DNA of 36,900 nucleotides from Luminiphilus sp. (GTDB lineage Bacteria; Pseudomonadota; Gammaproteobacteria; Pseudomonadales; Halieaceae): the NCBI GenBank assembly GCA_029253085.1, contig JAQXAF010000086.1, positions 1-36,900 of the forward strand. Direction: 5' to 3'. Each line of letters starts with the position of its first letter. Position 1 is the first letter of the stretch. This document shows, piece after piece, positions 1 to 16,604 of the stretch. The notes under the pieces are model-generated. The model saw nothing but the letters and a program-made list of their open reading frames with translations. It was not told the origin of the DNA and did not search any database. A program made the translations under genes and the position numbers.

Positions 1-168
1 GAACCCATTTTTGCCACACATGTTGACGCACACTGTGTCGAGGAAACCGAAATGTTGTTTCTGGGGGAGGGTGCTGTGACCTACTTTAAGGAAGATGGCA
101 GCATTGACTATGTGTTCAATGCCCGCACGCTGGGCGAAGCCTTAGTCCAGCAAGCAAAAAGTTTATAA
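1..168 (+). CDS. C-terminal fragment of an unrecognised protein (5' end outside window)
   Basis: Frame 1 is open from the first base to a TAA at 166-168 and encodes the last 55 residues of a protein. The stretch is hydrophilic, with a His/Cys/Glu-rich start (HVDAHCVEETE) and no signal or membrane segment. I do not recognise the family. Its last bases overlap the stop of the convergent gene that ends at 163. Absence of any stop over the first 165 bases and ordinary amino-acid composition are the only support. Confidence 0.5.
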   Translation, partial: EPIFATHVDAHCVEETEMLFLGEGAVTYFKEDGSIDYVFNARTLGEALVQQAKSL

Positions 169-750
169 GGATACTGGTGTATCGGCAGAAAGCTTGACGG
201 TTTCACCAAAAGGTTTCGCGAAGCCCTTTGGTAAATCTTCTGTCATGTCTAGGACGGCGGCCAAGCGCCCCATACCCACATAAAGAGCACAGTGCATGAG
301 TAGCTCAATCACCTCTGCTTCCGTGAACTGCGCTTTTAGTTGGTCAAAAAAACCTCCATCGATGGCAAGGTGTTGTGTTGCAAATCGGTCACCGAGTTCG
401 ATAGCCAGCTGTTCTGGCTTTGACAGGTTGTCTGGAATTTCGGGTTGTTCTAGGGCACAAGCCGTGGCTTCGTCGAAACTTCCCTCTGCTTCTGAGTAAC
501 GAATGGCCATGCAGCTGCGGCATTGGTTGTGAAACGCTATGCGTAAACGCATCAGCTCAATGAGCCTTTCGGGCAACGTTCTGTTGATTCCCAGGGCAGC
601 TCCAAACTGAAGCGGTCCCATGGCGGCTTTGGGCGCATGAGCCAGCATTCGCGTAATCCCTAGCGCCATCTCGCTGGCAGTATCGGCTTGAACAAACTCC
701 CGGAGTTCTTGGGGCCATTCGTCGGTGGGTACAAAACTTAGTCTGCTCAT
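163..750 (-). CDS. carboxymuconolactone decarboxylase (AhpD-like) family protein
   Basis: A 195-residue protein with the all-helical CMD/AhpD core: an LIELMRLRIAFHNQC stretch leading into a CRSC pair (Cys77 and Cys80 from this start). In AhpD-type proteins the CxxC pair is redox active, while other members are decarboxylases; the substrate here is unknown. The His that usually follows in CxxCxxxH is an Arg. The ATG at 750 is chosen because GAGG lies 6 bases upstream; a TTG at 762 would add four residues but overlaps that site. It stands alone on the minus strand and converges on the partial gene at the window edge with a 6-base overlap. The family is clear; the reaction is not. Confidence 0.8.
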   Translation of the reverse strand: MSRLSFVPTDEWPQELREFVQADTASEMALGITRMLAHAPKAAMGPLQFGAALGINRTLPERLIELMRLRIAFHNQCRSCMAIRYSEAEGSFDEATACALEQPEIPDNLSKPEQLAIELGDRFATQHLAIDGGFFDQLKAQFTEAEVIELLMHCALYVGMGRLAAVLDMTEDLPKGFAKPFGETVKLSADTPVSL

Positions 751-848
751 AATCGACCTCAATCGTGATTGGCATTTCTGGGGTGCCGGTGGCTATCTCA
801 GCAGTGAATTAGTCTGGCGTACTGCTGCGTGAGTGAGCCGGGTGGGTT

Positions 849-867
849 TTGGCTAGGCCCTAGCTAA
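849..867. repeat. inverted repeat TTGGCTAG-n3-CTAGCTAA, possible operator
   Basis: Two 8-base arms separated by GCC; 7 of 8 positions are complementary, with a perfect 5-base core GCTAG/CTAGC. There is no T-tract after it on either strand, so a terminator is unlikely. Its symmetry and its place in a divergent intergenic region suggest a dimeric regulator site, but no regulator gene is in the window. Confidence 0.4.
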
Positions 868-1122
868 GTCGGGTCATGCGGCTGATCTAATCTAGCAAGT
901 ATCAGTGCTTGTTGCAGGATATTCTCACCGAACATCACCAGAGGAACACTTATGCACTGAGTTAAATATCAACCGCTTCCTACTATCTGGCTGATGAGTG
1001 TATGAACCAATAAGTCTTCCTTCCCGAGCTTCCATCAAGGTTGCTGGTGCCAATTTGCAACGCCAGACAAGGGTATTCATGGCTTAAGTCGGCGACGAAT
1101 TAGTAACTATTGGAGCGTAGCA

Positions 1123-1131
1123 GGGGGGGGG
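1123..1131 (+). repeat. homopolymer run of nine G
   Basis: Nine consecutive G about 54 bases upstream of the candidate -35 box of the TonB-dependent receptor. Such tracts can vary in length by slippage. Whether this one affects expression is unknown. Confidence 0.5.
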
Positions 1132-1184
1132 TATTTTCGGCCTGCTCGTGCTTGTTAGAAGCCTAGGTGTAGTCCGTTCCTCAG

Positions 1185-1213
1185 TTGACGGTCAGTAATT
1201 ATTTGTTCATAAA
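1185..1213 (+). promoter_or_regulatory. candidate sigma70 promoter for the TonB-dependent receptor
   Basis: TTGACG (-35, 5 of 6 consensus) at 1185-1190, a 17-base spacer, then CATAAA (-10, 4 of 6) at 1208-1213. Transcription would start near 1220, leaving about 45 bases before the ATG at 1265. A Shine-Dalgarno-like AAAGAGGA lies shortly before that ATG. Confidence 0.45.
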
Positions 1214-1264
1214 GTACGTTGAGCGCTTAGCTATCTCTCACAGTAAATTAAAGAGGAATGCCCC

Positions 1265-3736
1265 ATGTTGCGATCCACTAATGACCGCCGAAAACCTGTT
1301 TTTAAGGTCGTGCCACTGGCAGCAGCCCTGATGCCTGCAGTATGGAGTGTGGCTTTACCCGCAGCGGCGCAAAATGACGCGAGGCTAGAGGAAGTCTTGG
1401 TAACGGCTACGCGTCGAGCTGAGACGGATATTCAGTCAACACCCATTGCGGTCACTCAAGTCAGTGCTGAACAAATACAACGACTTGTGCCGCGAGATTT
1501 ATTAGACGTCGCGATCTTTGCGCCCAATGTGGTGGCGGGTAAGCAGCCTGGATTCAATTCTGCAAACTTTGCGATTAGGGGAGTGGGTCAAAACGGCATT
1601 ATTTTGTATTACGAAAATCAAGTGGGTGTCATCGTCGATGATTTTGTCATTCCTCATATTCAAACGGCCAATATCGAAATGCTCGATATCGCCAGCGTTG
1701 AAATTCTAAGAGGCCCTCAAGGCACGCTGTTTGGTAAAAATACGACGGGGGGCGCCATTAATGTCAAAACAAATCGCCCTGAGCTCGATCAAAATTCGCT
1801 AGAAGTCCGAGGGCAAGTGGCACAGTACGGGCGCTATGAAGGGCAGGGGATTCTCAACTTGGCCATTGGTGAAAATCTCGCGTTCAGAGCGGCTGGCGTG
1901 TACATGAAGTCAGACGGTTGGTATTCCAACAGTGCGGCTTATGGTCCTGTGACTGATTTTGGGGTGGGCTTCCCGTTGGCGGGAACCTCTGGGCAAGGAG
2001 ACGGTGCCGATGTGGGTGGAGATGATGTTTTCAGCGGTCGCTTTAAGCTGCGTTGGCAGCCCACTGATGCGCTAGACATTAACCTCGCGTACGAGATGGT
2101 GCGAGACGACAGTGATGCACCTCCGTCCTACAACAATACGCCGCCTAACACGGGCTATCTTTGGAATACTCTAGGTTTCCGTCGTGATGCTGGTGACCCC
2201 CTTGATAATGCGGCAATTACTAACCGTAATGATGCACTGTTGAACATGGAGGCAGGCCATCAGATCGACGTCGATGGTTACTACTTAAACGTCGACTGGG
2301 ATCTCAACAGCGACTACACAGTAAGCGCTTTTGCGGGTTACAGAGAAACTGACTCCCAGCTTCCCAGTACGTATACGGGTGAGGTCGGTCCGGTGTCTTT
2401 GTTTGATGCTAACCGACAAGATGTGCGTGAAACGACGCAGCTGGAACTTCGTGTTGCGTCAGACCTAGACGGTGCCTTTAATTGGGTAGGTGGTGTCTTT
2501 TATCAACAAGACGACACGATATTTACTGTTGCACAGGTGCTGGGCTTTGTTGATATGACCATTCCCTCGGCGCTGGCATTTGGTGACCCCTTCTACTTCA
2601 ACAATAACCCACAGGTGCTCTCTAACGGGCAGGATGCCTCGGCTGAGGCACTGTATTTGGATGGCACCTTTGACCTCACAGAGAAACTGACTCTGGGAGC
2701 CGGCGTGCGCTATACCCACGAAAAGAAGAAGTGGACGGGGCGAAACCAAGTATTCACTCAGGCCTTAGCAGGGGGCTTCGATCCCTCGCTGACCTGGCAG
2801 GTTCTCGGGGAGCCCATCGCGGCGGCAGACTTTAATAAATATCCTATCGGTGTGGTCGAGGATGAAGAAAGCTGGAGTGAGCCCACCTGGCGTTTAAATC
2901 TGGGTTATCAGGCGACCGATGATCTTTACACTTACGCCACTTACTCCAGGGGCTTTAAAAGTGGTGGTTATAACGATCAGACCGGCACCAGTGGCAACCC
3001 TATTGAACCCCTGCAGGCACGCCCGACAGACCCCGAAATTGCAGATTCTTTTGAGCTGGGAATCCGTTCCGAGTTTCTTGATAATCGACTGCGCTTAAAT
3101 CTTACGGCATTTTATGTCACCTACGATGATTCACAGCAGCAACTCTTGGCTCGAATTACTGCAGACCGCGACGGTGATGGTATCGATGAAAGCGAGTTTC
3201 AAGAGACGCGCTACTTTAATGCTGCGGAGATTGAAGTCACGGGTTTAGAGTTCGAGGCGGCGTGGTTGTTGACTGACAACTTCACGGTCATGGGTAGTCT
3301 TGGCACGCTGGATGCTGAGTTCAAGTCTTTTGAAGCAGATACCAATTTTGACGGCACTATTGATATCGATCTCACAGGAAGCCCTGTTGCGAGGGCGCCA
3401 GAAAGCACCTGGAACCTCGATTTTCTTTATAACCTTCCGATAGCGGGGGGCCATCTTGATTTGGCTTTGAACGTAAATTACGAGGACGAGGCCGTTTATG
3501 CTTATACCTCGGTCCCAGGCTCAGATAACGGTCTTACGGATGATCGAACGCTAGTCAATGCCTCGGCGACTTACACAGCCCGTGATGGGCGTTGGTGGGT
3601 GCGGTTATACGGAAAAAATCTTACGGATGAACGGTATCGAGTGGGTGACCTGCCCGTGGCCAACTTGTGGATGATGTCCTTCTACGGTGAGCCCGAAACA
3701 ATCGGTATTGAAGGCGGCATGCGCCTGAATTGGTGA
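1265..3736 (+). CDS. TonB-dependent outer membrane receptor
   Basis: An 823-residue outer membrane receptor. A signal peptide ends near residue 35 (ALPAAA/Q). A TonB-box-like segment, EEVLVTATRR (about 42-51), follows, then a plug domain to roughly residue 165 with the characteristic RGPQGTLFGKNTTGGAINV stretch, then a 22-strand-type beta barrel ending in an aromatic residue (Trp823) with the family's late motif YGKNLTDERYRVG. Such receptors import scarce substrates across the outer membrane using TonB/ExbBD energy. The sequence resembles the large Sphingomonas-type receptor group (YSRGFKSGGYND) rather than a recognisable siderophore or B12 receptor, so the ligand is unknown. It faces a catabolic minus-strand cluster with only 14 bases between stop codons, which suggests but does not prove a linked substrate. 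Confidence 0.93.
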   Translation: MLRSTNDRRKPVFKVVPLAAALMPAVWSVALPAAAQNDARLEEVLVTATRRAETDIQSTPIAVTQVSAEQIQRLVPRDLLDVAIFAPNVVAGKQPGFNSANFAIRGVGQNGIILYYENQVGVIVDDFVIPHIQTANIEMLDIASVEILRGPQGTLFGKNTTGGAINVKTNRPELDQNSLEVRGQVAQYGRYEGQGILNLAIGENLAFRAAGVYMKSDGWYSNSAAYGPVTDFGVGFPLAGTSGQGDGADVGGDDVFSGRFKLRWQPTDALDINLAYEMVRDDSDAPPSYNNTPPNTGYLWNTLGFRRDAGDPLDNAAITNRNDALLNMEAGHQIDVDGYYLNVDWDLNSDYTVSAFAGYRETDSQLPSTYTGEVGPVSLFDANRQDVRETTQLELRVASDLDGAFNWVGGVFYQQDDTIFTVAQVLGFVDMTIPSALAFGDPFYFNNNPQVLSNGQDASAEALYLDGTFDLTEKLTLGAGVRYTHEKKKWTGRNQVFTQALAGGFDPSLTWQVLGEPIAAADFNKYPIGVVEDEESWSEPTWRLNLGYQATDDLYTYATYSRGFKSGGYNDQTGTSGNPIEPLQARPTDPEIADSFELGIRSEFLDNRLRLNLTAFYVTYDDSQQQLLARITADRDGDGIDESEFQETRYFNAAEIEVTGLEFEAAWLLTDNFTVMGSLGTLDAEFKSFEADTNFDGTIDIDLTGSPVARAPESTWNLDFLYNLPIAGGHLDLALNVNYEDEAVYAYTSVPGSDNGLTDDRTLVNASATYTARDGRWWVRLYGKNLTDERYRVGDLPVANLWMMSFYGEPETIGIEGGMRLNW

Positions 3737-3750
3737 GCCCGGTTTGTTGA

Positions 3751-4422
3751 TTAAGGGGTGGCGTTACTAAAGCCCTCTGTGAAGATTGCGCTGCGGGGCT
3801 TTACAAAGATGGCGCTTGCTGAGGCGGTAACCTGGCCAGCATGGCTGAGCTCAGCGTCGACCTTCATTTTACGCTCGGACAGGGGAGAGAGACTGGCAAC
3901 AAGGTCTAGCTCGCAGTTGAGCGGCGTTGGTCTCTGGTATCGAATATCAAGCCCCCCAGTCATGCCGGCATTGCCGGCGTAAATCTGGGCCATACCCATA
4001 AAGTGGTCTAGGATCGCAGCCACCCAGCCTCCGTGCACGTGGTTGGGTGGACCCTCGTAGGACCAATTGAAAGTCACTGCACCGTAAACCTTGTGTTCAT
4101 CAAACCAGTGGCGCAACCCCGGCGACATGGGATGACTTTCTCCTCCTACACATAGCATTTCGTGATTGGCTACAGGATAACTACCGTAGGCATTGGCGTG
4201 GGCAATAACTCCTTTTAACTGCCTACGATCTTTGAGTTTGGCGGTAATGGCGTCGATGCTTTTTGCAATGGCACTGGCCCCAGATGGATCGATATCACTG
4301 GTGGTTGCGGCTTCAATTAACGCCTTTACGGCAGTGGCGACTTGCCGGCGAGCCTTCCAATACTCACTGTGATCTTCGTCAATGTCTTCGGTGATGAAGG
4401 GCGAGGTATAGCTCTTATCCAT
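3751..4422 (-). CDS. THEM4-like hotdog-fold thioesterase
   Basis: A 223-residue protein whose C-terminal half carries the hotdog thioesterase signature: NHVHGGWVAAILDHFMG with HGG at 130-132 and probable catalytic Asp139, then GGLDIRYQRPTPL. The N-terminal 115 residues are less conserved, as in THEM4/PaaI-type acyl-CoA thioesterases. The likely reaction is hydrolysis of an acyl-CoA thioester in the cytoplasm; the acyl group is unknown. The start is set at the ATG at 4422 because it overlaps the stop of the upstream epoxide hydrolase by one base (TAATG), a translational-coupling arrangement. An in-frame start 45 bases further upstream would lie inside that gene. The same-strand neighbours suggest a role late in a catabolic route. 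Confidence 0.82.
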   Translation of the reverse strand: MDKSYTSPFITEDIDEDHSEYWKARRQVATAVKALIEAATTSDIDPSGASAIAKSIDAITAKLKDRRQLKGVIAHANAYGSYPVANHEMLCVGGESHPMSPGLRHWFDEHKVYGAVTFNWSYEGPPNHVHGGWVAAILDHFMGMAQIYAGNAGMTGGLDIRYQRPTPLNCELDLVASLSPLSERKMKVDAELSHAGQVTASASAIFVKPRSAIFTEGFSNATP

Positions 4423-5594
4423 TAATCTAAAATCTCTAGTGAACGAAGTTGTTCGCGCCATTGCCACAGTTCCTTTACCAGCAGGTCGGGCACTTCAAGC
4501 GCAGAGAAATGGCCACCCTTTTCGATTTGATCGTTGAAATAATGCAAGTTAATGAATTTTTTGCGCGCCCAGCGCTCGCTTGATCGGAAAATTTCATTGG
4601 GAAAGAGAGAAATAGCGGTTGATAACTCGACCTCAGACATGTCCGGGTTATTAAAACTTTCCCAATACAAACGTGCCGAGCTCGCCCCTGAATTGGTTAG
4701 CCAGTAGAGCATGACAGTATCTAAAAGCTCATCGCGGGCTATGGCATTTTCGGGGTGTCGTAGGCCGTTGATTTCGCAGTCACACCACTGGGCATATTTT
4801 TCTATAATCCAGGCCATCTGCCCGGTGGGAGAATCTGCGAGACCATAGCCTAAGGTCTGTGGGCGGGTGCTTTGTTGTTTCGAGTAACCCGAGTCCCAGT
4901 CTTGATAAAAATTGAATGCCTCAAGCGCCTGGACTTCTTCGGGCAGCAGCGACTCGAGTGTCTCAGGGTCCGGGGCAACCACGGGTAAGGTGATGTGAAT
5001 GCCCGCGCAGGGCGTATTGGGCGCCGTGGCTATAGCTTGAGTGACTAGGGAGCCCCAATCACCGCCATGGGCAAGAAATGCCTCATGCCCTAAGCGTTGC
5101 ATTAACGCAATCCATAGATCAGCGATTTTGTGCACGCTGGTTCCTGTGGTCCTAGGTTTGCCAGAAAAGCCGTAGCCCGGAAGGGCTGGAACAACAACAT
5201 GGAAGGCATTGTCGGCACTGCCACCGTGCTCAGTGGGATTGCTGAGTCGATCGATCACGTGTCTAAATTCAAGTACTGAGCCGGGCCATCCATGGGTAAG
5301 TAACAGTGGTGTTGCATTGGTATGAGGCGACCGTTGGTAAATGAAGTGAATATCTAAACCTTCGATTTCAGTCCGGAAATTAGGCCAACGGTTGAGGGTA
5401 TTAGAGACCCGCGTCATATCGTATTGCGAGCACCAGTGGTCTGTTAGCTCTCTTACGTAAGCTAGGGGTGCACCTTGGCTCCAATCCTCAACGGTTTCCT
5501 CGTCTGGATACCGCGTCAGTTTTAGGCGCTGCTTGAGGTCAGCAATCGCCCCGTCGTCAACGCTGGGTATAAATGGCGTGATAGGTGATTCCAT
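4422..5594 (-). CDS. epoxide hydrolase, EHN (microsomal/juvenile-hormone) type
   Basis: A 390-residue alpha/beta hydrolase. Residues about 5-115 match the N-terminal EHN domain that precedes the fold in microsomal-type epoxide hydrolases. HGWPGS at 101-106 is the oxyanion-hole motif and GGDWGS at 177-182 supplies the nucleophile Asp179. Glu340 (in SSERW) and His362 (in KGGHFSALE) align with the Glu and His of the mammalian microsomal enzyme, so the Asp-Glu-His triad is complete. There is no N-terminal membrane anchor, so the enzyme should be soluble. It opens an epoxide to a diol; the substrate is unknown. It lies 141 bases after the SRPBCC-SDR gene and its stop overlaps the start of the thioesterase. 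Confidence 0.92.
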   Translation of the reverse strand: MESPITPFIPSVDDGAIADLKQRLKLTRYPDEETVEDWSQGAPLAYVRELTDHWCSQYDMTRVSNTLNRWPNFRTEIEGLDIHFIYQRSPHTNATPLLLTHGWPGSVLEFRHVIDRLSNPTEHGGSADNAFHVVVPALPGYGFSGKPRTTGTSVHKIADLWIALMQRLGHEAFLAHGGDWGSLVTQAIATAPNTPCAGIHITLPVVAPDPETLESLLPEEVQALEAFNFYQDWDSGYSKQQSTRPQTLGYGLADSPTGQMAWIIEKYAQWCDCEINGLRHPENAIARDELLDTVMLYWLTNSGASSARLYWESFNNPDMSEVELSTAISLFPNEIFRSSERWARKKFINLHYFNDQIEKGGHFSALEVPDLLVKELWQWREQLRSLEILD

Positions 5595-5735
5595 GAAGCG
5601 ATCTCACAATTCAATACAAGACCGGCAGCTTATCTCCAGATGGGAGTCCAAGCCAGTATTGTAGGAAGGGCGCACCCCAACTGGGCTAGCGGGGTTGTCA
5701 GCTGCGGTGCGTCGCTCTGTTCGGGCTGAAGCGAT

Positions 5736-7148
5736 TTAGTGCGCTGCTGCGCCTTCAATCTGTGCATCGATAAAAGCTTCGAGTTGGGCACGCTGCGCGG
5801 CGGGTTCCTGTGTTTTTGAGAGTAGGTAAGGCGTACGAGGCTCTCTATCCAGAAAAAGTTGCCCTGAAAGATCACCGGCCTCCTTTGCTTTAGCAAGCCA
5901 GATGATGGTGTCCGCACCCTCGTCAGACGTGCGAAGAATTCGTCTCGTGATACTGCGAAAGGTGGGCAGTGCTGAGGCGACTCCAGGGGTATCCGCCCAG
6001 CCAGGATGCATTGCATTGACGATGATGCCATCTTCACGCCACTGCTCTGCCCATAGCTCACTCAATACGGTTAATGCGCGCTTAGCCCGGGCGTAGGCCT
6101 TTGCGCCGTGATAAGAGGGCGGGGTCATAATCAACCGGTCACAGACCAGCTTTTCGGTATACATGCCCCCTGATACAACATTGATTACCCGCGAGGGTGT
6201 GCTGTGGTTTGTGAGCAAAGGGCGCAGCTTGTGCGTCAACAGCGATGGACTGGCAAGCAGTAACGCGAAGCTTTGTTCGAGTCCTTCGCGGGTCAACGCA
6301 TAGTCATTAAACAGTGCGCCTGCGTTGTTTATGAGTACGTCAATAGGCGCGCCTCTGGCCAGCAGCCGATCGGAGAGCGCGCTCACGTCAGCCATTAGGG
6401 AGAGATCGGCAATTTCAATGGTAATATCGGACCTACCCGTTTCCGATTCAAGGGTCTGCAGCAGCTCTTCCTGTTTTGCGGGGTTACGGATAACCAGGGT
6501 CAAATTTGCCCCAGCCTCTGCAAGCGCAATGCTGGTGGCGAGCCCCAGGCCGCTGTTGGCGCCGGTTAAAACAACGTGCCGTCCGTCGAGAAAAGTCGAG
6601 TCGGGTTTTCTTTGAGCAAGGCTTCGTCGAAAGCCCCATTTTGAAAACATAGCAACGCCGGGGGCGACCCAGCGATCTGCCCGGGCTGTACAGTCAGAAA
6701 TTTTTGGTGGCGAGGGCGAATTGTCGAGTGCGCTTTTTAACCCTTCCAGACTCTTTCGGCCCATGTCTCGCATGCCAGATTCCAGCTGGTTCTCAAACGA
6801 ACCAATCCCCAAGTGGTATTGAATTTCAGCGGTATAGCTGACGTGAGTCTGAGACCCCCTTTCTGTAAAAGTAATCACATCTCTTACGTCAAAAAATCGA
6901 CTTTTCCCCACCAAAACAATCGATGCCCAAGGGCAATACTCGACGATCTCGTACTCAAGCCGCACTTTCGTAGGACCCACCGAACAATGCACAGTAAAGT
7001 GTGTTCCCAGTCCTATTGGGCCGGGGGTGGATTTTTTGGATGTCAGGGCGGTTGCATCCCATTCAGCAACTGTTCTGAAATCTGAGACATAGCGAAAGCA
7101 GTCTTTGATGCTTCGTTGAACCGCGATTTCTTCGTGGAGTGTAATCAT
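5736..7148 (-). CDS. fusion: SRPBCC ligand-binding domain + DHRS12-like short-chain dehydrogenase
   Basis: A 470-residue two-domain protein. Residues 1 to about 145 look like an SRPBCC/polyketide-cyclase-type helix-grip domain, which binds hydrophobic ligands. After a linker (about 145-185), the rest is a classical SDR: TGANSGLG at 195-202 for the nucleotide, NNAG at 274-277, probable catalytic Ser326 in VVSGG, and Tyr352/Lys356 in YARAK. The segments SGGMYTEKL, MHPGWADTPGV and GADTIIWLA closely recall the human/mouse DHRS12 subgroup. The predicted activity is NAD(P)-dependent alcohol/ketone oxidoreduction, perhaps on a lipid-like substrate held by the N-terminal domain. The reading frame is continuous, so this is a genuine fusion unless the sequence has an error. 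It is the first enzyme gene of a minus-strand cluster with the epoxide hydrolase and thioesterase. Confidence 0.88.
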   Translation of the reverse strand: MITLHEEIAVQRSIKDCFRYVSDFRTVAEWDATALTSKKSTPGPIGLGTHFTVHCSVGPTKVRLEYEIVEYCPWASIVLVGKSRFFDVRDVITFTERGSQTHVSYTAEIQYHLGIGSFENQLESGMRDMGRKSLEGLKSALDNSPSPPKISDCTARADRWVAPGVAMFSKWGFRRSLAQRKPDSTFLDGRHVVLTGANSGLGLATSIALAEAGANLTLVIRNPAKQEELLQTLESETGRSDITIEIADLSLMADVSALSDRLLARGAPIDVLINNAGALFNDYALTREGLEQSFALLLASPSLLTHKLRPLLTNHSTPSRVINVVSGGMYTEKLVCDRLIMTPPSYHGAKAYARAKRALTVLSELWAEQWREDGIIVNAMHPGWADTPGVASALPTFRSITRRILRTSDEGADTIIWLAKAKEAGDLSGQLFLDREPRTPYLLSKTQEPAAQRAQLEAFIDAQIEGAAAH

Positions 7149-7216
7149 GAACGTTTGGGATCGATGCCTAATGAACAGAAGGTACGATCACTGCCGGTTA
7201 GCAGTTCACCTTGATC

Positions 7217-7555
7217 TTAGTCCTCGGACCAAACAGTTCGCACGGCTTCACCAAAATCATCATAGATCACACGTTTTTTTGGCCGCGGCTTAACGCCGCG
7301 CTTAGGTAAGCGCTTTGATTGGCTTTTGCGCCGCTCATCCAAGGTGGCAACGACATCATCAAGGGGGGTTCGCGCTGTTCTGGGTTCGTTGAAAATAGGC
7401 GTGCGAAGGGGCGCCACCCTAGATTCGAGTGCGGTCTCCCCGACCTCAACATTTACGATTCGTCCACCCTTGGCGAGAAAAGACTCGATATCTCGATCTA
7501 GGTCGTTGCGTAAATCGGCCTTGTCAGCCTTGTGCTTGTAGATTTCGCGCTTCAT
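7217..7555 (-). CDS. small basic protein with a SutA-like FLAKGG motif
   Basis: A 112-residue hydrophilic protein with no signal or membrane segment. Residues 19-33 (LDRDIESFLAKGGRI) resemble the conserved helix and FLAxGGxI segment of SutA, the RNA-polymerase-binding transcription factor of Pseudomonas. The C-terminal half has a basic tract (QSKRLPKRGVKPRPKKR) and ends in an acidic tail. Function as an RNA-polymerase or nucleic-acid partner is inferred from this short motif only. It lies 68 bases before the SRPBCC-SDR gene on the same strand and could be the first gene of that transcript, or independent of it. No Shine-Dalgarno sequence is seen at the usual distance; a TATACT box ends 8 bases before the ATG. 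Confidence 0.68.
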   Translation of the reverse strand: MKREIYKHKADKADLRNDLDRDIESFLAKGGRIVNVEVGETALESRVAPLRTPIFNEPRTARTPLDDVVATLDERRKSQSKRLPKRGVKPRPKKRVIYDDFGEAVRTVWSED

Positions 7556-7563
7556 TGCTGTGC

Positions 7564-7569
7564 AGTATA
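7564..7569 (-). promoter_or_regulatory. candidate -10 box (TATACT) for the SutA-like gene
   Basis: Minus-strand TATACT (5 of 6 consensus) ends 8 bases before the ATG at 7555, so transcription would begin at or next to the start codon. No good -35 is visible at 16-18 bases. The pattern suits a leaderless or nearly leaderless mRNA. Confidence 0.3.
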
Positions 7570-7701
7570 GCGACCCCTGTCAGATAGATCATTCGATAGC
7601 TTTGTTAAGGATTGCCCGTCATGTCAGTTTTTCTGGTTAAATGCCCTGCTTTAGAGGCTGGGTGGAGCTGCCGGTGAAGCGAGCAGCGAGGTAGTGCAAG
7701 T

Positions 7702-8448
7702 ATGCGGATAATTAGGTCTCTGCTGACATTTTTATGGATCGCACTCTCAGTTATCCCTGTGGGCACGTTTTTGCTCGTCTTTTCGCTATTTTTCAGCGCA
7801 GAGCGTTTGTGGTGGTGGTTCGCTCAACCGTATCTCTACGCCGCAATTTTTGTCGTACGCTGGATCGGTGGAGTCAAATATCGCGTGTTGGGGTTGGAAA
7901 ACCTGCCTGACGTTGACGATAACCAGCGGATCATCCTGTGCCCCAAGCATCAGTCTACCTGGGAAACGTTTTTTATTCCGAGTATGACGCCACACCCACT
8001 AGCCTATGTCTTCAAGCGCGAACTGCTATTGATACCCTTTTTTGGGTGGGCGATGGCGAGACTCGATATGGTGCATATCGATCGTAGCGCGCGAAGTCAG
8101 GCCTGGAGCAAAGTGGCTGATTTGGGCGTCAAACTTATGGATAAGGGCAAGTGGGTCATCATGTTCCCTGAGGGTACACGGACCCACAGAGGGCAACAGG
8201 GCGATTACAAGAATGGTGCAGCGCGCTTAGCGCTGGCGACTGGTGCAAAAATCATTCCCATTGCCGTGGCTTCGGGACGCTGTTGGCCCAGAAAAAGTTG
8301 GCGATTTATACCTGGTGTTATCGATGTGTCGATAGGCAAGCCCATGGACGCATTAGCCGGTGAGTCACCCATAGAATTGATGGCGAGAGTCGAGACATGG
8401 ATCGAGTCTGAAATGCGCGTGATCGATCCTGTAGCGTATCGGCAGTAG
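7702..8448 (+). CDS. plsC: 1-acyl-sn-glycerol-3-phosphate acyltransferase family protein
   Basis: A 248-residue PlsC-family membrane acyltransferase. A hydrophobic segment spans about residues 6-32 and a second lies near 43-55. The catalytic block is KHQSTWETFF (His83, with Glu88 in place of the usual Asp of HX4D), followed by VFKREL (103-108), RLDMVHIDRSAR (about 120-131) and FPEGTR (155-160), which together form the four acyltransferase motifs. The enzyme would transfer an acyl chain to lysophosphatidic acid or a related lysophospholipid at the inner membrane. The HX4E variant occurs in a recognised branch of the family, so activity is likely, but the acceptor is less certain than for canonical PlsC. 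Its gene is divergent from the SutA-like gene. Confidence 0.85.
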   Translation: MRIIRSLLTFLWIALSVIPVGTFLLVFSLFFSAERLWWWFAQPYLYAAIFVVRWIGGVKYRVLGLENLPDVDDNQRIILCPKHQSTWETFFIPSMTPHPLAYVFKRELLLIPFFGWAMARLDMVHIDRSARSQAWSKVADLGVKLMDKGKWVIMFPEGTRTHRGQQGDYKNGAARLALATGAKIIPIAVASGRCWPRKSWRFIPGVIDVSIGKPMDALAGESPIELMARVETWIESEMRVIDPVAYRQ

Positions 8449-8516
8449 CGAGTAACGCTGATTTTCAAACGGATACCTTCCGTAAGACGCTCAAGTCAGA
8501 GTTATACTTATGACAG

Positions 8517-8534
8517 CGTCCAGGCCGGTGGACG
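8517..8534 (+). terminator. stem-loop between plsC and the dienelactone hydrolase gene
   Basis: CGTCCA-GGCCGG-TGGACG forms a perfect 6-base stem with a 6-base loop, followed by TCTTTC. It could be a weak terminator for the acyltransferase gene. Because a TATACT box lies at 8503-8508, it could instead form at the 5' end of the next transcript. Confidence 0.35.
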
Positions 8535-8587
8535 TCTTTCGAGCTAGATCAGGCACAGGATTTATTTATTTTTAGGAGCAGCAAGCT

Positions 8588-9304
8588 ATGACAATACAGA
8601 CGCGTGAGTTGACCTATGAATCGGCGGGAGTCACTTTTAACAGCACGATGGCATGGGATGACACTTTGGGTCCTAGGCCTGCGGTGCTTGTAGCACCGAC
8701 TTGGGCTGGCTGTACTGATTTTGAACGTGCACAGGCATTGCGACTTGCTGACCTAGGTTATGTGGGCTTAGCCGTTGATATGTATGGTGCTGGAGCCGTC
8801 GGTGCAGACAAGGCGGAATGCACCGCATTGATGACCCCTATGATGTCAGATCGGTCGGTTTTACAAGCGCGTATTGGTGCGGCGGCAGACGCGATTCGAA
8901 GCCAGCCCGAGGCGGCAGATGAGCCAGTCGCGGCTATAGGCTTCTGTTTTGGCGGCCTCTGTGTCCTCGATTTGGCTCGTTCTCGGCAAGATATCGCGGG
9001 TGTGGTTTCATTGCATGGATTATTACTGCCTGCGGATAATTTGCCTGAGCCAGATCTGCAGGCGAAGGTCTTAGTTTTGCACGGCTACGACGATCCGATG
9101 GTTCCCCCGGAACAATTAATTGCTTTTGCTACCGAGATGACGGCCACGGGTTGTGACTGGCAGCTACACGCCTACGGACAAACCCTGCACGCGTTTACAA
9201 ATCCGGAGGCGAACGACCCAGACTTTGGAACGGTTTACAGTGCTGCAGCGAGCCGCCGCGCTTACCGCGCATTGGACGACTTTTTGAGTGAGGTGCTGTC
9301 TTAG
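8588..9304 (+). CDS. dienelactone hydrolase family protein
   Basis: A 238-residue alpha/beta hydrolase with the Cys-Asp-His triad of the dienelactone hydrolase family: Cys120 in GFCFGG, Asp169 in HGYDDPMVP, and His201 in TLHAFTNP. There is no signal peptide. True dienelactone hydrolases act in chlorocatechol degradation, but most family members in genomes like this have unknown substrates, so no pathway is assigned. A Shine-Dalgarno-like AGGAG lies shortly before the ATG. The stop overlaps the start of the following methyltransferase by one base (TAGTG), so the two are probably co-translated. Confidence 0.9.
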   Translation: MTIQTRELTYESAGVTFNSTMAWDDTLGPRPAVLVAPTWAGCTDFERAQALRLADLGYVGLAVDMYGAGAVGADKAECTALMTPMMSDRSVLQARIGAAADAIRSQPEAADEPVAAIGFCFGGLCVLDLARSRQDIAGVVSLHGLLLPADNLPEPDLQAKVLVLHGYDDPMVPPEQLIAFATEMTATGCDWQLHAYGQTLHAFTNPEANDPDFGTVYSAAASRRAYRALDDFLSEVLS

Positions 9305-9924
9305 TGGGTTTTTATAGCCGTTACGTTGTACCCCGATTAGTGACCTGCGCCTGTGGCACTAAGCCCATCGTTCGTCAGCGTCAAAAGGTGGTACCCCAAG
9401 CCCAAGGGCGTATTTTAGAAATCGGTTTGGGCGCCGGCCACAATTTGCCTCACTACGATCATCGGCAAGTGGAAGGTGTGGTCGGTATTGATCCCTGTGA
9501 GGAATCTTGGCGATTAGCCAAACCTCGTGTTCGTGCCGTGCCTTTTGATGTGGAGTTCAAGGCGGGTTCGGCTGAGAATATTCCTGCAGAGGACGAAAGC
9601 TTTGACACGGTTTTGCTGACGTTTGCACTGTGCACAATCCCAGATCCAGCTGCGGCGATAAAAGAGGCTCGTCGTGTGCTACGTCCGTCGGGTAAGCTGG
9701 TTTTTTGTGAGCACGGTGAAGCGCCCGATGCTAGCGTAGCAAAGTGGCAGAATCGGCTGAACCCTCTCTGGAAGGTGCTGTTCGGAGGTTGCAATCTCAA
9801 TCGCAACATTGTGGAGATTATTGATAGCAACGGGTTTCGTTTAGACGATATTGACCAAATGTACTTGCCGGGAACCCCCCGAGTGGCGGGCTTTAATATT
9901 TGGGGTACGGCGCGCCCAGATTAA
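9304..9924 (+). CDS. class I SAM-dependent methyltransferase
   Basis: A 206-residue methyltransferase of the Methyltransf_11 type. Motif I is ILEIGLGAGHNL (about 38-49), the acidic residue ending strand 2 is in VVGIDP, motif IV is SFDTVLLTFALCTIPDP, and the following VLRPSGKLVFCEHG is typical. The C-terminal part with LWKVLFGGCNLNR resembles the METTL7-like/small-molecule group, so the acceptor is probably a small molecule, lipid or thiol rather than RNA; this is inference. GTG is used as start because it overlaps the upstream stop codon and GAGG lies 10 bases before it. The N-terminus carries a CACGTKPI stretch. Confidence 0.85.
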   Translation: MGFYSRYVVPRLVTCACGTKPIVRQRQKVVPQAQGRILEIGLGAGHNLPHYDHRQVEGVVGIDPCEESWRLAKPRVRAVPFDVEFKAGSAENIPAEDESFDTVLLTFALCTIPDPAAAIKEARRVLRPSGKLVFCEHGEAPDASVAKWQNRLNPLWKVLFGGCNLNRNIVEIIDSNGFRLDDIDQMYLPGTPRVAGFNIWGTARPD

Positions 9925-10108
9925 TAAGCCGCTTTAAACAAGTAGGCGATGCTTTGTCTGGGAGCCTTTATTCCTGTTCCTTCGCCGAGGCTTCGTCTAG
10001 CCCTGCCGCGAAATTCGTAATTCGGCGACACAACCCGTTCAACACAAGCAGTTCAAGTGAATTTACGACAACCAATGCAGGCTTTGAACTTTGAGACTGG
10101 AGGTAGGC

Positions 10109-10114
10109 TAAACT
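10109..10114 (+). promoter_or_regulatory. candidate -10 box (TAAACT) for the first lipoprotein gene
   Basis: TAAACT ends 7 bases before the ATG at 10122, which would place the transcription start at the initiation codon. A GGAGGT sequence lies 17 bases before the ATG, too far to be a normal ribosome binding site. No convincing -35 is seen. Confidence 0.25.
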
Positions 10115-10121
10115 GCGCGCC

Positions 10122-10799
10122 ATGAGAAACTGCTTAATCTTTACTGCGCTGGTGCTGCTAATCGGGTGTCAGGCCGATGGGCCCAAACCTGCACGATATG
10201 CGCCTTCAGATCCGATCGATATGACTGGAAACTGGGAGGTTGACTATGCTCGCAGTGACAACATACAGCGCCGCTTTAACACCATCATTCGACAATTGCA
10301 GCAAGAGGCAGAGCGTCGAGCTAGGGCGGCTGAGCGTGGCCAAACTTATTCAGGAACGCCGATGTCGTCAGGTCGAGAGTTGGTGGCGCTGGCAGAGATG
10401 GCAGAAATTATCACCGCGCCTGAGCTGCTCGAGGTTATCCAGACGGACAATACCGTGAGAGTGAAACGTGAAAATAGTTTTGCTCTTATTTGCGTTACCG
10501 ATCGACCCCCCCCTACCGTGACTCAAACCCCCTTCGGGGTTGAGCGCTGTGGATGGGATGGACATCAGTTGTTTTTTGACATCACCCTCCCTGACGGATT
10601 GTCGATTCGCCACCGCTTAACCCGTTCTGCACTTGCCGATTCCCTGGTGCTACAAACTGCAGTGTATTCGCCAAGCGTGCGCGAGCCCTTTATTGTCAAT
10701 CGCGTTTACTCTCGATTTGATCCAGCAAAGGCGGGCTATCGCTGTACGCAAACACTTAGCAAGGGAACGGTTTGCACGACAGAGAAGCCCAGCGGATGA
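10122..10799 (+). CDS. predicted lipoprotein of unknown function
   Basis: A 225-residue protein with a lipoprotein signal: hydrophobic residues 5-14 and lipobox LIGC with Cys16. After the lipid anchor comes MTGNWEVDYARSDNIQ, then a charged, probably helical region (QLQQEAERRARAAERG) and a beta-rich second half. I do not recognise a named domain; the 'GNWE-D-arsd' start recalls small envelope proteins that bind hydrophobic ligands, but that is weak. It overlaps the next lipoprotein gene by four bases (ATGA), so the two are probably made together. The preceding 197 bases contain no gene that I can support. Confidence 0.78.
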   Translation: MRNCLIFTALVLLIGCQADGPKPARYAPSDPIDMTGNWEVDYARSDNIQRRFNTIIRQLQQEAERRARAAERGQTYSGTPMSSGRELVALAEMAEIITAPELLEVIQTDNTVRVKRENSFALICVTDRPPPTVTQTPFGVERCGWDGHQLFFDITLPDGLSIRHRLTRSALADSLVLQTAVYSPSVREPFIVNRVYSRFDPAKAGYRCTQTLSKGTVCTTEKPSG

Positions 10800-11932
10800 T
10801 GCATTTACTGCGCTTAAGCGTACTTTTACCGATACTACTAATCAGCGTGCTCACCCTAGGCTGCAGTAACCCTAGAGAATCGACTACGGGGTTGCCGGCG
10901 AATATAGGTTCAGCGGTTACTAATGCTTCTGATTGGCCGCCATCGGTTGCGAAAGCGATGTTACGTACCGAACTTAACCCGCTGCCATTGGAAGTTGGTG
11001 TGGTTGTTTTTGAAGAGGGTATACGTAACCCCGATGCGCAAGACGCACGGGATAAATTACGATCGGTAGAGACGCGTCTTGCTGCGGCGTATCTGCGCGA
11101 CATCCTGACGGAATCGCGACAGTGGGGTGCGGTAAGGGTCTTACCCGGGGCGAGCCATTTTGCGGCGCTGACCGTGTTTGGCGTCATTATCCACTCAGAC
11201 GGCAGAGACTTTGTAGTCGATATTCGGGCGGTCGATGCCACAAATCGCGTGTGGTTAGATGCACGCGTTCACAGCCAAGCGTCTGCTCAGGATTACCTTG
11301 ACAGCACGACAGAACCCTTCAGAGCCCTTTTTGTGTCGATTGCCAATCGGTTGCGACTGGCGGCTGAAGATTTAGACCCCAAAAATATTGCGAGACTCGT
11401 GGGAGTTACAGATTTGCGGTATGCCCAGGAGCTAGCCCCTGATGCTTTTTCATCGTATTTGGTAGAGGAAAATGGCTACCTAAGACCTAACCGGTTGCCC
11501 GCTGATTCTGATCCTATGATGGCGCGGATCGCACGAATACGAAATCAGGAGGCCCTTTTTATCGATACGGTGGACGAGCAATATGTTGATTTGGGTAATG
11601 AGTTAGGGCCCACTTATCGCTTGTGGCGTCGGTCTAGTCTTGAGCAGGCGGAATATCTTGAGGCCTACACCGAGCGGGCTTCGGGTCGGGAGCTGAAGGC
11701 GAAGCAGGGCAGCTTTGCAGCGATGCAACAGGTCTATTCGGCGTATCGTTCGGTGCGCATACAGGAACAGGATTTGTTTGAGCTGGCCACTGGATTCGAT
11801 AATGAAACCGCACCGACAGTTCTGGAGGTGGGTGAGAATGTGGTGCGCCTTGGGGGCACTCTTGATGAGCAGTACGCGCAATGGCGGCGTATTCTCGGGC
11901 AAATTATCTCGATAGAGCAGGGCAGTCTGTGA
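10796..11932 (+). CDS. second predicted lipoprotein, coupled to the first
   Basis: A 378-residue protein starting at the ATGA overlap with the previous stop; a second ATG follows at once. The hydrophobic signal (about 4-21) ends in TLGC with Cys23; Thr at -3 is slightly atypical for a lipobox. Residues about 75-150 (RLAAAYLRDILTESRQWGAVRVLPG, then VFGVIIHSDGRDFVVDIRAVDATNRVW) have the alternating pattern of envelope lipoproteins that assess a periplasmic adaptor fold, and the C-terminal half is helical and rich in charged residues. No named family is recognised. It overlaps rlmKL by four bases (GTGA). The site of action is probably the periplasm or outer membrane inner leaflet. Confidence 0.8.
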   Translation: MMHLLRLSVLLPILLISVLTLGCSNPRESTTGLPANIGSAVTNASDWPPSVAKAMLRTELNPLPLEVGVVVFEEGIRNPDAQDARDKLRSVETRLAAAYLRDILTESRQWGAVRVLPGASHFAALTVFGVIIHSDGRDFVVDIRAVDATNRVWLDARVHSQASAQDYLDSTTEPFRALFVSIANRLRLAAEDLDPKNIARLVGVTDLRYAQELAPDAFSSYLVEENGYLRPNRLPADSDPMMARIARIRNQEALFIDTVDEQYVDLGNELGPTYRLWRRSSLEQAEYLEAYTERASGRELKAKQGSFAAMQQVYSAYRSVRIQEQDLFELATGFDNETAPTVLEVGENVVRLGGTLDEQYAQWRRILGQIISIEQGSL

Positions 11933-14118
11933 CTCAGTATCGTTTTCTTGCAACAAGCCCCAAGGGTCTAGGTAGTCTCCTCGTGCCCGAGATGAGTGAC
12001 TTGGGGGCGCTTGATGTTCGGGAAACCGTTGCTGGAGTGACCTTCAATGGTGGGCTGGGAGTCGGTTACCGCGCCTGCCTTCACAGCCGTCTGGCTAATC
12101 GAATTATTTTGCAGCTCAGTGAATTTGCTGCCAGTCGTGCCGACGATTTATATGATGGGATGGCTAATTTACCCTGGTGCGATCACCTAGCTCCCAGCAA
12201 TACGCTGGCCATCGATTTCTCTGGCCGTTCAGAAGATATACGCAACACACAGTTTGGGGCCCAGCGGTGCAAAGACGCGATCGTTGACGTTTTTCGCAGC
12301 CGAGGGCTCGATCGGCCCAATGTCGATACCCGTACTCCAGACCTACGAATTCACGTGCGGCTACATCGAGGCCGGGTCAGTGTGGGCATTGATTTATCCG
12401 GCACTAGCCTGCACCAGCGGGGCTATCGCACCGAGCCCGGAAAAGCTCCCCTTAAGGAAAACCTCGCCGCAGCCGTGCTGATCCGAAGCGGTTGGCCCGA
12501 ATGTCTGGAAGCGGGTCAGCCTTTGGTCGACCCCATGTGTGGTTCGGGAACTTTTTTAATTGAAGCCGCTATGATGGCGACGGCGAGACCGCCAGGACTC
12601 GATCGTAACCGCTGGGGTTTTCAAGGGTGGCTTGGTCACAGTCCAACCCAGTGGCAAGCCATTGAGGCTGAGGGGCGAAGTCGCTTGAAACCCGCTCCCG
12701 AGGGTGTCGAACTTCGCGGTTATGATGGTGATATTCGTGCGGTAAGGCGCGCGGAAGCGAGCATATCGGCGTTGGGCCTCGATGACCTGATTCGAGTGCG
12801 CCCGAAGGCGCTCAATACCCTGACCCGGCCCACCCATCGAGTGATGCCAGAGGGGCTGATTGTCTGCAATCCGCCTTGGGGTGAGCGTTTGGGGCAGTTG
12901 TCTACGATGCGGTTACTCTACCGTGAGCTGGGTCAGGTAATACACCGAGAGTTTCAAGGATGGAAAGCGGGTATTTTAACGGCCCACAACGAATTGGGTA
13001 GAGCGGTTGGTCTTCGAAGCCACAAGCAATACGCGCTCAATAATGGTTCGATTGATATTCAGCTTTTACTCTTTGACCTGAGTGCTACCAATCGACTCGC
13101 TCCCGATCCCGTTGATGGTCCTCCGAAAAGCGATAACCCCGGTGAGGTCGACATAGCCGCCGAAGCGTTGAGTGACGGTGCAACTATGCTGGCCAATCGA
13201 CTGGTTAAAAATAGACGCCGTCTTAAGTCGTGGCTTAAGTCGAGTGATACAACGTGTTACCGATTGTATGATGCCGATATGCCCGAATATGCCGTGGCAA
13301 TCGATATTTATGAAGGGGTGCCCCACGTGGCGGAATATGCGCCACCGAAAACCATTGATGAAGGCGCAGCAGAGCATCGGTTTCAGGAGGCTTTGACCGC
13401 GGTGCGTCGGGTATTGCAGTGGCCAGAGGATCAGCCGATTGCTGCGAAGCGACGGCAGCGTCAGCGCGGCACAGACCAGTACAACAAGCTGGATCAAACT
13501 GGGGAGCGCATCACCGTTCGCGAGGGGCCGGCACGATTACTAGTCAACTTAAACGACTATCTGGATACAGGCTTATTTCTCGACCATCGGCCGCTGCGCC
13601 TCACGTTAGGTAAAGAAGCTGCGGGAAAGCACTTTCTGAATCTATTTTGCTACACGGGCGCCGCCACTATTCATGCGGCGCTAGGCGGGGCGGCAACGTC
13701 GACGAGTGTCGATTTATCAAACACTTATTTGAAATGGTTGGCAGATAATTTGGCAGTCAATGGGCTTTCAGAACGGCAGCATCGTGTGGTGCGGGCCGAC
13801 TGTCTCACTTGGTTAGCGGCTTGTGATCGAAAATTTGATTTGGTCCTTCTTGATCCGCCGTCGTTCTCAAACTCTAAAGCTACGGAGGGGACGCTGGATA
13901 TTATCCGGGACCAAGTTGCGTTAGTAGATGCCGCAATGTCAGTGCTCGACTCGGGCGGTACGCTCTATTTTTCAAATAACCACCGTCGTTTTGAGCTCGC
14001 GGAGGATTTGAAGCAACGTTACCGGGTAGAAGATATTACCCGTCAGACGATCCCGGAAGACTTTAACCGCCGAAAAGATATTCATCACTGTTGGCGCTTC
14101 CAGCACCTGAGCCGTTAG
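11929..14118 (+). CDS. rlmL: bifunctional 23S rRNA methyltransferase RlmKL (G2445 m2G / G2069 m7G)
   Basis: A 729-residue two-enzyme protein. The N-terminus starts FLATSPKGLGSLLVPE, as in E. coli RlmL, and is followed by a THUMP domain. The RlmL methyltransferase has DPMCGSGTFLIEAAM (Asp201) and the catalytic NPPWGERL (Asn314; E. coli has NPPY). The C-terminal RlmK part has LFCYTGAATIHAAL and LLDPPSFSNSK (Asp642). It methylates G2445 and G2069 in the peptidyl-transferase region of 23S rRNA. The GTG at 11929 is chosen because it aligns with the known N-terminus and overlaps the previous stop (GTGA); an ATG 48 bases upstream is probably not used. Its coupling to two envelope lipoproteins is unexpected for an rRNA enzyme. 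Confidence 0.95.
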   Translation: MTQYRFLATSPKGLGSLLVPEMSDLGALDVRETVAGVTFNGGLGVGYRACLHSRLANRIILQLSEFAASRADDLYDGMANLPWCDHLAPSNTLAIDFSGRSEDIRNTQFGAQRCKDAIVDVFRSRGLDRPNVDTRTPDLRIHVRLHRGRVSVGIDLSGTSLHQRGYRTEPGKAPLKENLAAAVLIRSGWPECLEAGQPLVDPMCGSGTFLIEAAMMATARPPGLDRNRWGFQGWLGHSPTQWQAIEAEGRSRLKPAPEGVELRGYDGDIRAVRRAEASISALGLDDLIRVRPKALNTLTRPTHRVMPEGLIVCNPPWGERLGQLSTMRLLYRELGQVIHREFQGWKAGILTAHNELGRAVGLRSHKQYALNNGSIDIQLLLFDLSATNRLAPDPVDGPPKSDNPGEVDIAAEALSDGATMLANRLVKNRRRLKSWLKSSDTTCYRLYDADMPEYAVAIDIYEGVPHVAEYAPPKTIDEGAAEHRFQEALTAVRRVLQWPEDQPIAAKRRQRQRGTDQYNKLDQTGERITVREGPARLLVNLNDYLDTGLFLDHRPLRLTLGKEAAGKHFLNLFCYTGAATIHAALGGAATSTSVDLSNTYLKWLADNLAVNGLSERQHRVVRADCLTWLAACDRKFDLVLLDPPSFSNSKATEGTLDIIRDQVALVDAAMSVLDSGGTLYFSNNHRRFELAEDLKQRYRVEDITRQTIPEDFNRRKDIHHCWRFQHLSR

Positions 14119-14354
14119 CTCAGCACAGACTTTAAAACGACCTTTGGGCTCTGGGGCTTGTCGCCACGGCTGGGTGCGGCGGCGGGAGGTCAGGCTTTGT
14201 CCGACGGTTGTCGCTTTTTGGCCAAGGTCAGCGGCGTAGGCAAGGATGCCTAAGAAGGTTTTAAGGCATGCCGTTATCTGGCGATTGTACCTTGGCGAAG
14301 TGTGATTATTGGGCTGCCTGATGGCACTTTTCAGTCCTAAAATTAGCCCTGTGG

Positions 14355-14363
14355 TGTTATACT
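14355..14363 (+). promoter_or_regulatory. candidate extended -10 promoter for leuCDB-asd
   Basis: TGT-TATACT gives a TGn extended -10 with 5 of 6 -10 bases. No good -35 is present at 16-18 bases, which extended -10 promoters tolerate. The predicted start near 14370 leaves a leader of about 157 bases before the leuC ATG. Confidence 0.45.
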
Positions 14364-14388
14364 CCGGTCGCCATTTTGTGTGATTAGC

Positions 14389-14405
14389 CCGAAGTGTTCC
14401 TTCGG
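14389..14405 (+). other. stem-loop in the leuC leader
   Basis: CCGAAG-TGTTC-CTTCGG is a perfect 6-base stem with a 5-base loop just after the predicted transcription start. It is not followed by a T-tract, so it is more likely a 5' stabilising or regulatory hairpin than a terminator. Confidence 0.4.
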
Positions 14406-14420
14406 ACTGAGCTTGTTCTT

Positions 14421-14483
14421 ATGCCAGGCCTATTAGATCCTCGAGCAACTTTGGCACACCCCTTAAATTCATGGCCTTCATAA
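14421..14483 (+). CDS. possible 20-codon leader peptide with Leu codons upstream of leuC
   Basis: An ATG-to-TAA frame of 20 residues (begins MPGLLDPR) with four leucines encoded by CTA, TTA, TTG and TTA, two of them adjacent. It lies 43 bases before leuC in the predicted transcript, the position expected of a leucine-sensing leader peptide. Against this, there is no good ribosome binding site and no terminator hairpin with T-tract between it and leuC. Treat it as a weak candidate. Confidence 0.2.
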
Positions 14484-14526
14484 GACGGAGGCGCGCTACA
14501 GACAACGCTGTTCCCGGAGACGACTT

Positions 14527-15957: not shown

Positions 15958-16604
15958 ACGCGTTTCAGCGACTCGAAGGGTTGGTGGCGCCCATGGACCG
16001 CGCCAATGTGGATACAGATCTCATTATTCCCAAGCAGTTTCTCAAATCGATTCGCAGGACGGGCTTTGGCCCCAATCTGTTTGATGAGTTGCGCTATCTT
16101 GATGAAGGGCAGCCCGATTCGGACTGTAGTGGACGTCCGCTGAACACAGAGTTTCCCCTGAACTTTCCCCGTTATCAGGGGGCAAGTATCCTTCTGGCTA
16201 GAGAGAATTTTGGCTGCGGCTCGAGTCGTGAACACGCGCCTTGGGCATTAGATGGGGCAGGTTTCCGCGCTATCATTGCGCCAAGCTTTGCCGATATCTT
16301 CCGATCTAACTGTTTCAAAAACGGGCTGCTGCCGATTGCTCTTGAGGCTAAACGTGTCGAGCAGTTGTTTACTCAAATGTATGAAACTGAAGGCTTTACT
16401 TTAGTCATCGATCTTGAGCAACAGGTTATCGAAATGCCCGACGGTGAGACTATTGCTTTTGAGACTGAGGATTTTGGCAGAAATTGCTTGCTTAACGGGC
16501 TCGATGACATTGGGATCACGTTGCAGAATGAGGCGGTTATTCGCGATTTTGAGCGTCAGCATCAGGCGCGCTTTCCCTGGGTATTTGAGACCTTGGAGGT
16601 CTGA
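15954..16604 (+). CDS. leuD: 3-isopropylmalate dehydratase small subunit
   Basis: A 216-residue swivelling-domain subunit of isopropylmalate isomerase. Recognisable features are [19 protein letters not shown] near the start and [15 protein letters not shown], which binds substrate, near residues 83-97, followed by [18 protein letters not shown]. It pairs with LeuC to form the active heterodimer. The ATG overlaps the leuC stop by four bases (ATGA), and its own stop overlaps the leuB start by one base (TGATG), so subunits and next enzyme are made in step. Confidence 0.98.

Follow-up and report, generated by a model that had tools for sequence, protein, structure and literature searches.

A single gene of the marine bacterium Luminiphilus sp. 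encodes an SRPBCC domain and an SDR domain in one chain. Two key questions about it are: (i) whether the fusion is genuine; and (ii) what its product does, and together with which other genes. The window analyzed here is a stretch of 36,900 nucleotides (contig JAQXAF010000086.1), in which the gene and its parts are placed as follows.

5736..7148, minus strand: the whole fusion gene (SRPBCC plus SDR), from its ATG through the stop codon, encoding 470 aa
6723..7148, minus strand: SRPBCC/START-like helix-grip domain, residues 1-142 (PF10604, models, Foldseek)
6591..6722, minus strand: linker, residues 143-186; the model places helices in the stretch 152-177
5739..6590, minus strand: classical SDR domain, residues 187-470 (PF00106)

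The initial annotation had described one unbroken frame joining a polyketide-cyclase-type (SRPBCC) domain to an SDR. Such a frame does span 5736-7148, but on the minus strand; the plus-strand frame across the same interval contains many stops, as checked by translation. In Pfam, residues 1-141 match PF10604 (Polyketide_cyc2; E 3.8e-11, 43.9 bits against a cut-off of 27.4) and residues 191-391 match PF00106 (adh_short; E 7.5e-25, above its cut-off). Among the 25 NCBIfam matches listed of 191 families, every one falls below its own cut-off; they are to SDR families and, for residues 1-143, to the LIC13081 family. The full-length AlphaFold2 model, for which the input alignment consisted of 18 sequences from the window and the compared loci, has a mean pLDDT of 93.3 and a pTM of 0.92 and contains a helix-grip fold (b-a-a-b6-a) as well as the SDR; the N-domain modeled alone reaches a pLDDT of 88.1. 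By Foldseek, the N-domain (residues 1-142) is nearest to START/Bet v1-type SRPBCC proteins, including CoxG and PYL, with TM by query up to 0.83. These relatives (7wa9 MSMEG_5634, 2d4r, 8uds CoxG, PYL2) differ from the fusion in being stand-alone chains, and identity is 8-22% among the 50 matches listed. The SRPBCC assignment is thus upheld by PF10604, AlphaFold2 and Foldseek, and the structure prediction of the whole protein, proposed at the outset as a check, has the fold in place. Both folds, a START-like pocket and an SDR in one chain, are predicted ones.

A sequencing error had been raised as the other possible explanation for the fusion. Of the 37 genomes from the same genus, 31 have the gene at its full length, which speaks against such an error; two further genomes have partial matches (in G032, residues 1-402 within a frame of 472 aa; in G033, residues 182-465, next to the start of a contig), and the four genomes without a match (G001, G003, G021 and G027) are represented by assemblies 62-88% complete. 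The suggested search for the domain pair in other genomes was extended to 390 genomes of the order. There, 52 pass a threshold of 1e-40, and 51 carry the fusion once G170, where the match is to an unfused SDR only, is left out; contig ends cut two of the 51 (G106 and G222). Independent records under a name include HTCC2080 (90% identity), NOR5-3, Kineobactrum, Haliea, UBA7415 and a genome of the Bacteriovoracales. The fusions group as a single clade (support 100/99, 79 fused rows) in a tree built from 93 SDR domains. A single unfused member, L042, lies inside this clade; its SDR has its own start, and it looks like a secondary loss. The fused or unfused label changes three times on the tree, which L042 and L045 explain. 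A frame error or misassembly is rejected as the cause by the full-length relatives, the independent records and the single clade. The fusion is old and widespread, and it is one clade. No description of an SRPBCC-SDR fusion was found in keyword searches of open-licence PMC papers.

Locus L045 (Acidimicrobiia; positions 1651-3916) has a different organization, with a heliorhodopsin gene followed by separate, overlapping SRPBCC and SDR genes. It is possible that this is a light-linked split version of the fusion, and we count it in favor of the light-related role proposed below.

The SDR had also been called intact, a description that holds in part. The nucleotide-binding and catalytic motifs of a classical SDR are confirmed, namely TGANSGLG at residues 195-202, NNAG at 274-277, and S326, Y352 and K356; the Asn of the catalytic tetrad, on the other hand, is replaced by Leu297 in the window protein, which in this respect departs from a classical SDR. 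Across the alignment, the tetrad position is Leu in 59, Asn in 20 and His in one of the 80 rows tagged as fused (among which L045, with Asn, is counted though it is a split gene pair), and Asn in 10, Leu in one, Gln in one and His in one of the 13 unfused rows. Leu297 may weaken catalysis. It would also suit a protein that is a sensor or carrier, in which an oxidized lipid or a pigment is bound by the SRPBCC pocket, and NADP(H) by the SDR half acting as a redox gauge; the receptors among the SRPBCC relatives (PYL) and the adjoining sutA-like gene are further points in favor of that possibility. Against it, Ser326, Tyr352 and Lys356 are invariant in all 80 fused and all 13 unfused rows, and a quarter of the rows tagged as fused keep the Asn, so that we regard a sensor or carrier as decidedly improbable. 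The invariance of Ser, Tyr and Lys in all rows speaks for catalysis, which is probably kept. Arg221 is likewise invariant (93/93 rows). An Arg after the second SDR strand points to NADP(H), and the position of Arg221 after this strand therefore suggests NADP(H) as the cofactor.

A putative likeness of the SDR to DHRS12 lies in the motifs SGGM, MHPGWADTPG and GADT-WLA; the fusion would differ from DHRS12 in its additional N-terminal SRPBCC domain and in Leu297. Among solved structures, Foldseek places the SDR part closest to the light-dependent protochlorophyllide reductase LPOR (6l1h, 7jk9), which is not known to have an SRPBCC domain. LPOR chains occupy ranks 1-10, which would fit an isoprenoid, a quinone or a (bacterio)chlorophyll-type molecule as the substrate. 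Yet identity to LPOR is 18-21%, the TM by query is near 0.5, and the scores of many ordinary SDRs come close; we consider a substrate of this kind very improbable indeed.

The genes beside the fusion offer another route to its function.

7217..7555, minus strand: gene preceding the fusion, for a 112-aa RNAP-binding protein of the SutA-RBD type (PF20661; conserved order)
4422..5594, minus strand: gene following the fusion, for a 390-aa epoxide hydrolase with EHN and alpha/beta hydrolase parts (PF06441, PF00561)
3751..4467, minus strand: gene for a protein of the 4HBT thioesterase superfamily; it overlaps that of the epoxide hydrolase (PF03061)
1265-3736, strand opposite to the fusion: TonB receptor (from the Pfam scan)

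The order of sutA-like gene and fusion recurs in 36 Halieaceae loci (sutA-type loci), where membership in the Halieaceae was taken from the record name, a kinship label or the position in the tree. It was initially suggested that the fusion might act on the molecule handled by the neighboring epoxide hydrolase. Close to that view is a catabolic scheme, in which the fusion, the epoxide hydrolase, the 4HBT protein and the outer-membrane receptor would break down an imported hydrophobic compound via epoxide, diol and ketone. The adjacency itself is well founded: on the same strand, the epoxide hydrolase gene adjoins the fusion in 31 of the 36 sutA-type loci (in one of the others, L081, the contig ends), the 4HBT gene is found by tblastn in 19 of the 36, and the window has its TonB receptor. 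The link is a local one, however, since neither the epoxide hydrolase nor the 4HBT gene was found in the fetched stretches of the 14 loci in which the fusion lies in a light/singlet-oxygen cluster. The TonB receptor is also inconstant, its cluster (cluster 17) having six members among the loci compared, and the fusion has a stress-type promoter motif of its own. On balance we think catabolism of an imported compound unlikely.

The wider gene context points instead to an ECF-ChrR/furan-fatty-acid/photolyase cluster, whose genes are known to protect cells from oxygen damage caused by light. For the gene labels, we take ufaD to be an FAD amine oxidase and ufaO to be DUF1365. The fusion lies inside such a cluster in 14 of 80 distinct loci, when a cluster is defined by at least two of ufaD, ufaO, CMAS, photolyase and ChrR on the fetched stretch (up to ~9 kb either side); these loci belong to the Halieaceae genera g25 (six) and g27 (one) and to the families f4 (two) and f9 (five). 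Counting against this context, the fusion loci of families f24, f29, f36, f43, f19 and f32 have a cluster location in 0 of 23 cases. Near the fusion in the window (positions 1-16000) there is no match to an ECF, ChrR, ufa or phr gene, the window contig has no DUF1365 or Cupin_7 match, and DUF1365 was not found in the genome itself, of which the assembly is 79% complete; among the 58 relatives that were searched, 49 have it. The genome has two Cupin_7 matches, both in one 228-aa frame that need not be ChrR. The nine Luminiphilus loci retrieved for the ECF-ufaD-ufaO-CMAS cluster (L173-L181) have it apart from the fusion.

The cited sections of published work place an SDR (RSP_1087/PSPTO_1119) in the core sigmaE-ChrR (ECF11) regulon, together with rpoE-chrR, ufaD (RSP_1091), ufaO (RSP_1090), cfaS and phrB (PMC5507510, PMC6852236), and assign it no substrate; a light-inducible cluster of Pseudomonas mendocina also contains an SDR (PMC9758184). 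In R. sphaeroides, ufaD, ufaO and ufaM make furan fatty acids; the portion of that report drawn on here gives no detectable effect for single deletions of RSP1087, RSP1088 and RSP1089, and unchanged fatty acids upon loss of RSP1087 in a chrR background (PMC7380195). Furan fatty acids can therefore be made without an SDR of this type, which counts against the reading proposed below. The fusion resembles the regulon SDR in sitting in such clusters in g25, g27, f4 and f9, and the pairing is also alike, in that the cluster SDR accompanies a SnoaL gene and the SDR of the fusion an SRPBCC domain. The cluster SDRs differ in being unfused, with 240-269 aa (nine rows), in keeping the Asn (N112), and in the -35 letters of the promoter motif. 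In tblastn at 1e-5, the fusion SDR matched cluster SDRs in two loci only, at 25-26% identity.

A further combination occurs in Bacteriovorax (L048:774-6900), where a ufa-type cluster of amine oxidase, DUF1365, CMAS, chalcone-isomerase-like, DUF3833 and SnoaL genes ends in a DUF2878-SDR fusion.

The promoter-like motif lies between the sutA-like gene and the fusion, which are 68 bp apart.

7183..7208, minus strand: promoter-like site of the ECF type, TGAACT-N16-CGTA, with the ATG 60 bp downstream

The motif given for the ECF11/sigmaE-ChrR class in the cited passages is TGATCC-N16-CGTA (PMC5507510, PMC4336711). The window site agrees with it in spacing and in CGTA, and its -35 element TGAACT differs by two letters. 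A strict TGATCC/CGTAA scan gave six loci (L038, L130, L134, L142, L151 and L163; control 23/1700), and a weight matrix revealed the TGAACT variant before the fusion. TGANCY-N16-CGTA, a pattern chosen after inspection of the same loci, occurs upstream of the fusion at 33 of the 43 distinct loci from the Halieaceae (51-68 bp from the ATG), and a looser pattern in 37 of 43 (51-70 bp); in random 90-bp segments the counts are 54/16800 and 70/16800, respectively. The -35 element of the 37 sites is TGAACT in 25, TGAGCC in four, TGAACC in three, TAAGCC in two, and TGATCC, TAATCC and TAAACT in one each; the columns at 100% in the Luminiphilus motif count are a product of selection. The pattern precedes ufaD in 18 of 22 cases, the epoxide hydrolase gene in 0 of 33 and the PlsC gene in 0 of 37. 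A match upstream of SutA in L037 was discarded as an edge artefact.

The sites are not universal. Six Halieaceae loci lack one (L036, L070, L073, L079, L129 and L133), of which L079 has N letters within the site. Counting against the motif as a general feature of the fusion, it is present in three of 13 loci made up of f4, f9, f13, L041 and L046, several of the ten without it being inside the cluster, and in families f24, f29, f36, f43, f19 and f32 the strict pattern is found in 0 and the loose one in two of 23. Divergent ufaD-ECF gaps contain 28 TGATC[N]-N16-CGTA sites in 19 of 21 loci, a pattern identical to the published motif, and the two gaps without a site (L176 and L177) belong to genomes G006 and G031, in which the motif is missing at the fusion (L073 and L070) as well; in L133 it is missing at the fusion and present at ufaD. 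The fusion upstreams of L070 and L073 share no word of at least eight letters with the ECF upstreams of L176 and L177. By eye, the ufaD-ECF gaps of L176 and L177 have a palindrome-like pair, ATACACAT...ATGTGTAT, in place of TGATCC-N16-CGTA.

Searches of whole genomes gave no enrichment of the pattern, with 30 sites in the window's own genome (G000) against 27 in the control, three against seven in G016, and 29 against 19 in eight genomes that were chosen since their fusion already had the motif (TGAACY was sought in G000 and G016, TGAACT in the other eight Luminiphilus genomes). Only two genes recur downstream of sites in these ten genomes, the fusion in ten, which is by selection, and a carboxylesterase-family gene (PF00135) in five. 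The esterase site lies at 52-69 bp in four genomes; in L217, if the longest start is taken, the distance is 30 bp. Two PF00135 genes (L184:1501-3025 and L203:553-2397), with a site 58 and 57 bp upstream, have by eye a lipoprotein-like start. Taken together, a conserved ECF-type promoter-like motif is found before the fusion in the Halieaceae; that it acts as a promoter, and which sigma factor would read it, we infer.

The relationship between the fusion and the cluster SDR can also be followed through gene content. In 12 ufa loci from fusion-free genomes, a SnoaL gene lies directly before ufaD in ten, and in nine of these ten an SDR of 240-269 aa lies between the two. Among the 390 genomes, SnoaL was counted in 208 at 1e-15, and the cluster SDR in 236 at 1e-45, a cut that admits other SDRs. 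SnoaL is present in two of 51 genomes with the fusion versus 206 of 339 without it (Fisher 1e-15, ignoring kinship), and, among ufaO-bearing genomes only, in two of 44 versus 196 of 250 (Fisher 1e-21, again ignoring kinship). Both SnoaL-positive fusion genomes, G259 and G387, have weak matches (5e-21, 2e-22), and ufaO itself is little more common with the fusion (44/51) than without it (250/339). In G170, a fusion-free member of the Halieaceae, SnoaL (1.8e-44) and SDR (3.6e-81) genes lie side by side. Counting against the exchange, the cluster-SDR model at 1e-45 also matches 16 of the 51 genomes with the fusion; in 15 the match is weak (1e-46 to 1e-52), and in G106 it is 9e-77. Within genus g13 the fusion and SnoaL alternate, which is not counted as support: the fusion genomes of g13 are without ufaO as well as SnoaL, and the avoidance there is therefore uninformative. 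Overall, fusion genomes avoid the SnoaL gene, and the lineage seems to have given up a separate SDR with its SnoaL partner in favor of a single fused chain.

We put forward, with a little less than even confidence, that the fusion is a stress-induced NADP(H) oxidoreductase with a lipid pocket that replaces the SnoaL + SDR pair, with a putative sigma factor, cofactor and substrate. The protein would be a soluble, NADP(H)-dependent short-chain oxidoreductase. Its START-like pocket would take up a hydrophobic, probably membrane-lipid-derived molecule and would present it to the SDR domain, which would oxidize or reduce a lipid-derived carbonyl or alcohol. An ECF sigma factor may switch on the gene as a member or a neighbor of the photo-oxidative (singlet oxygen) response. 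The fusion would fill the position that elsewhere in the order belongs to the separate SnoaL and SDR genes of the ChrR/furan-fatty-acid cluster. The earlier proposal of a substrate-capturing oxidoreductase for a hydrophobic molecule is compatible with both predicted folds. Enediones arise when singlet oxygen attacks furan fatty acids, so lipid carbonyls would be a natural candidate substrate, and the one that we favor would be the carbonyl products of oxidized or furan acyl chains. A more specific version, in which a replacement reductase clears reactive carbonyls from singlet-oxygen-hit (furan) acyl chains, in the Halieaceae under its own ECF promoter and with the lipoprotein-like carboxylesterase, we hold to be somewhat unlikely.

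If replacement of the SnoaL + SDR pair is the correct reading, orphan DHRS12-like SDRs would acquire a function in lipid damage, and the fusion could link DHRS12-like enzymes to lipid photo-damage. The apparent swap of SnoaL and SDR for one chain suggests that the pocket domain and the SDR belong together in the response. The fusion provides a compact single protein in which substrate capture and turnover may be assayed together.
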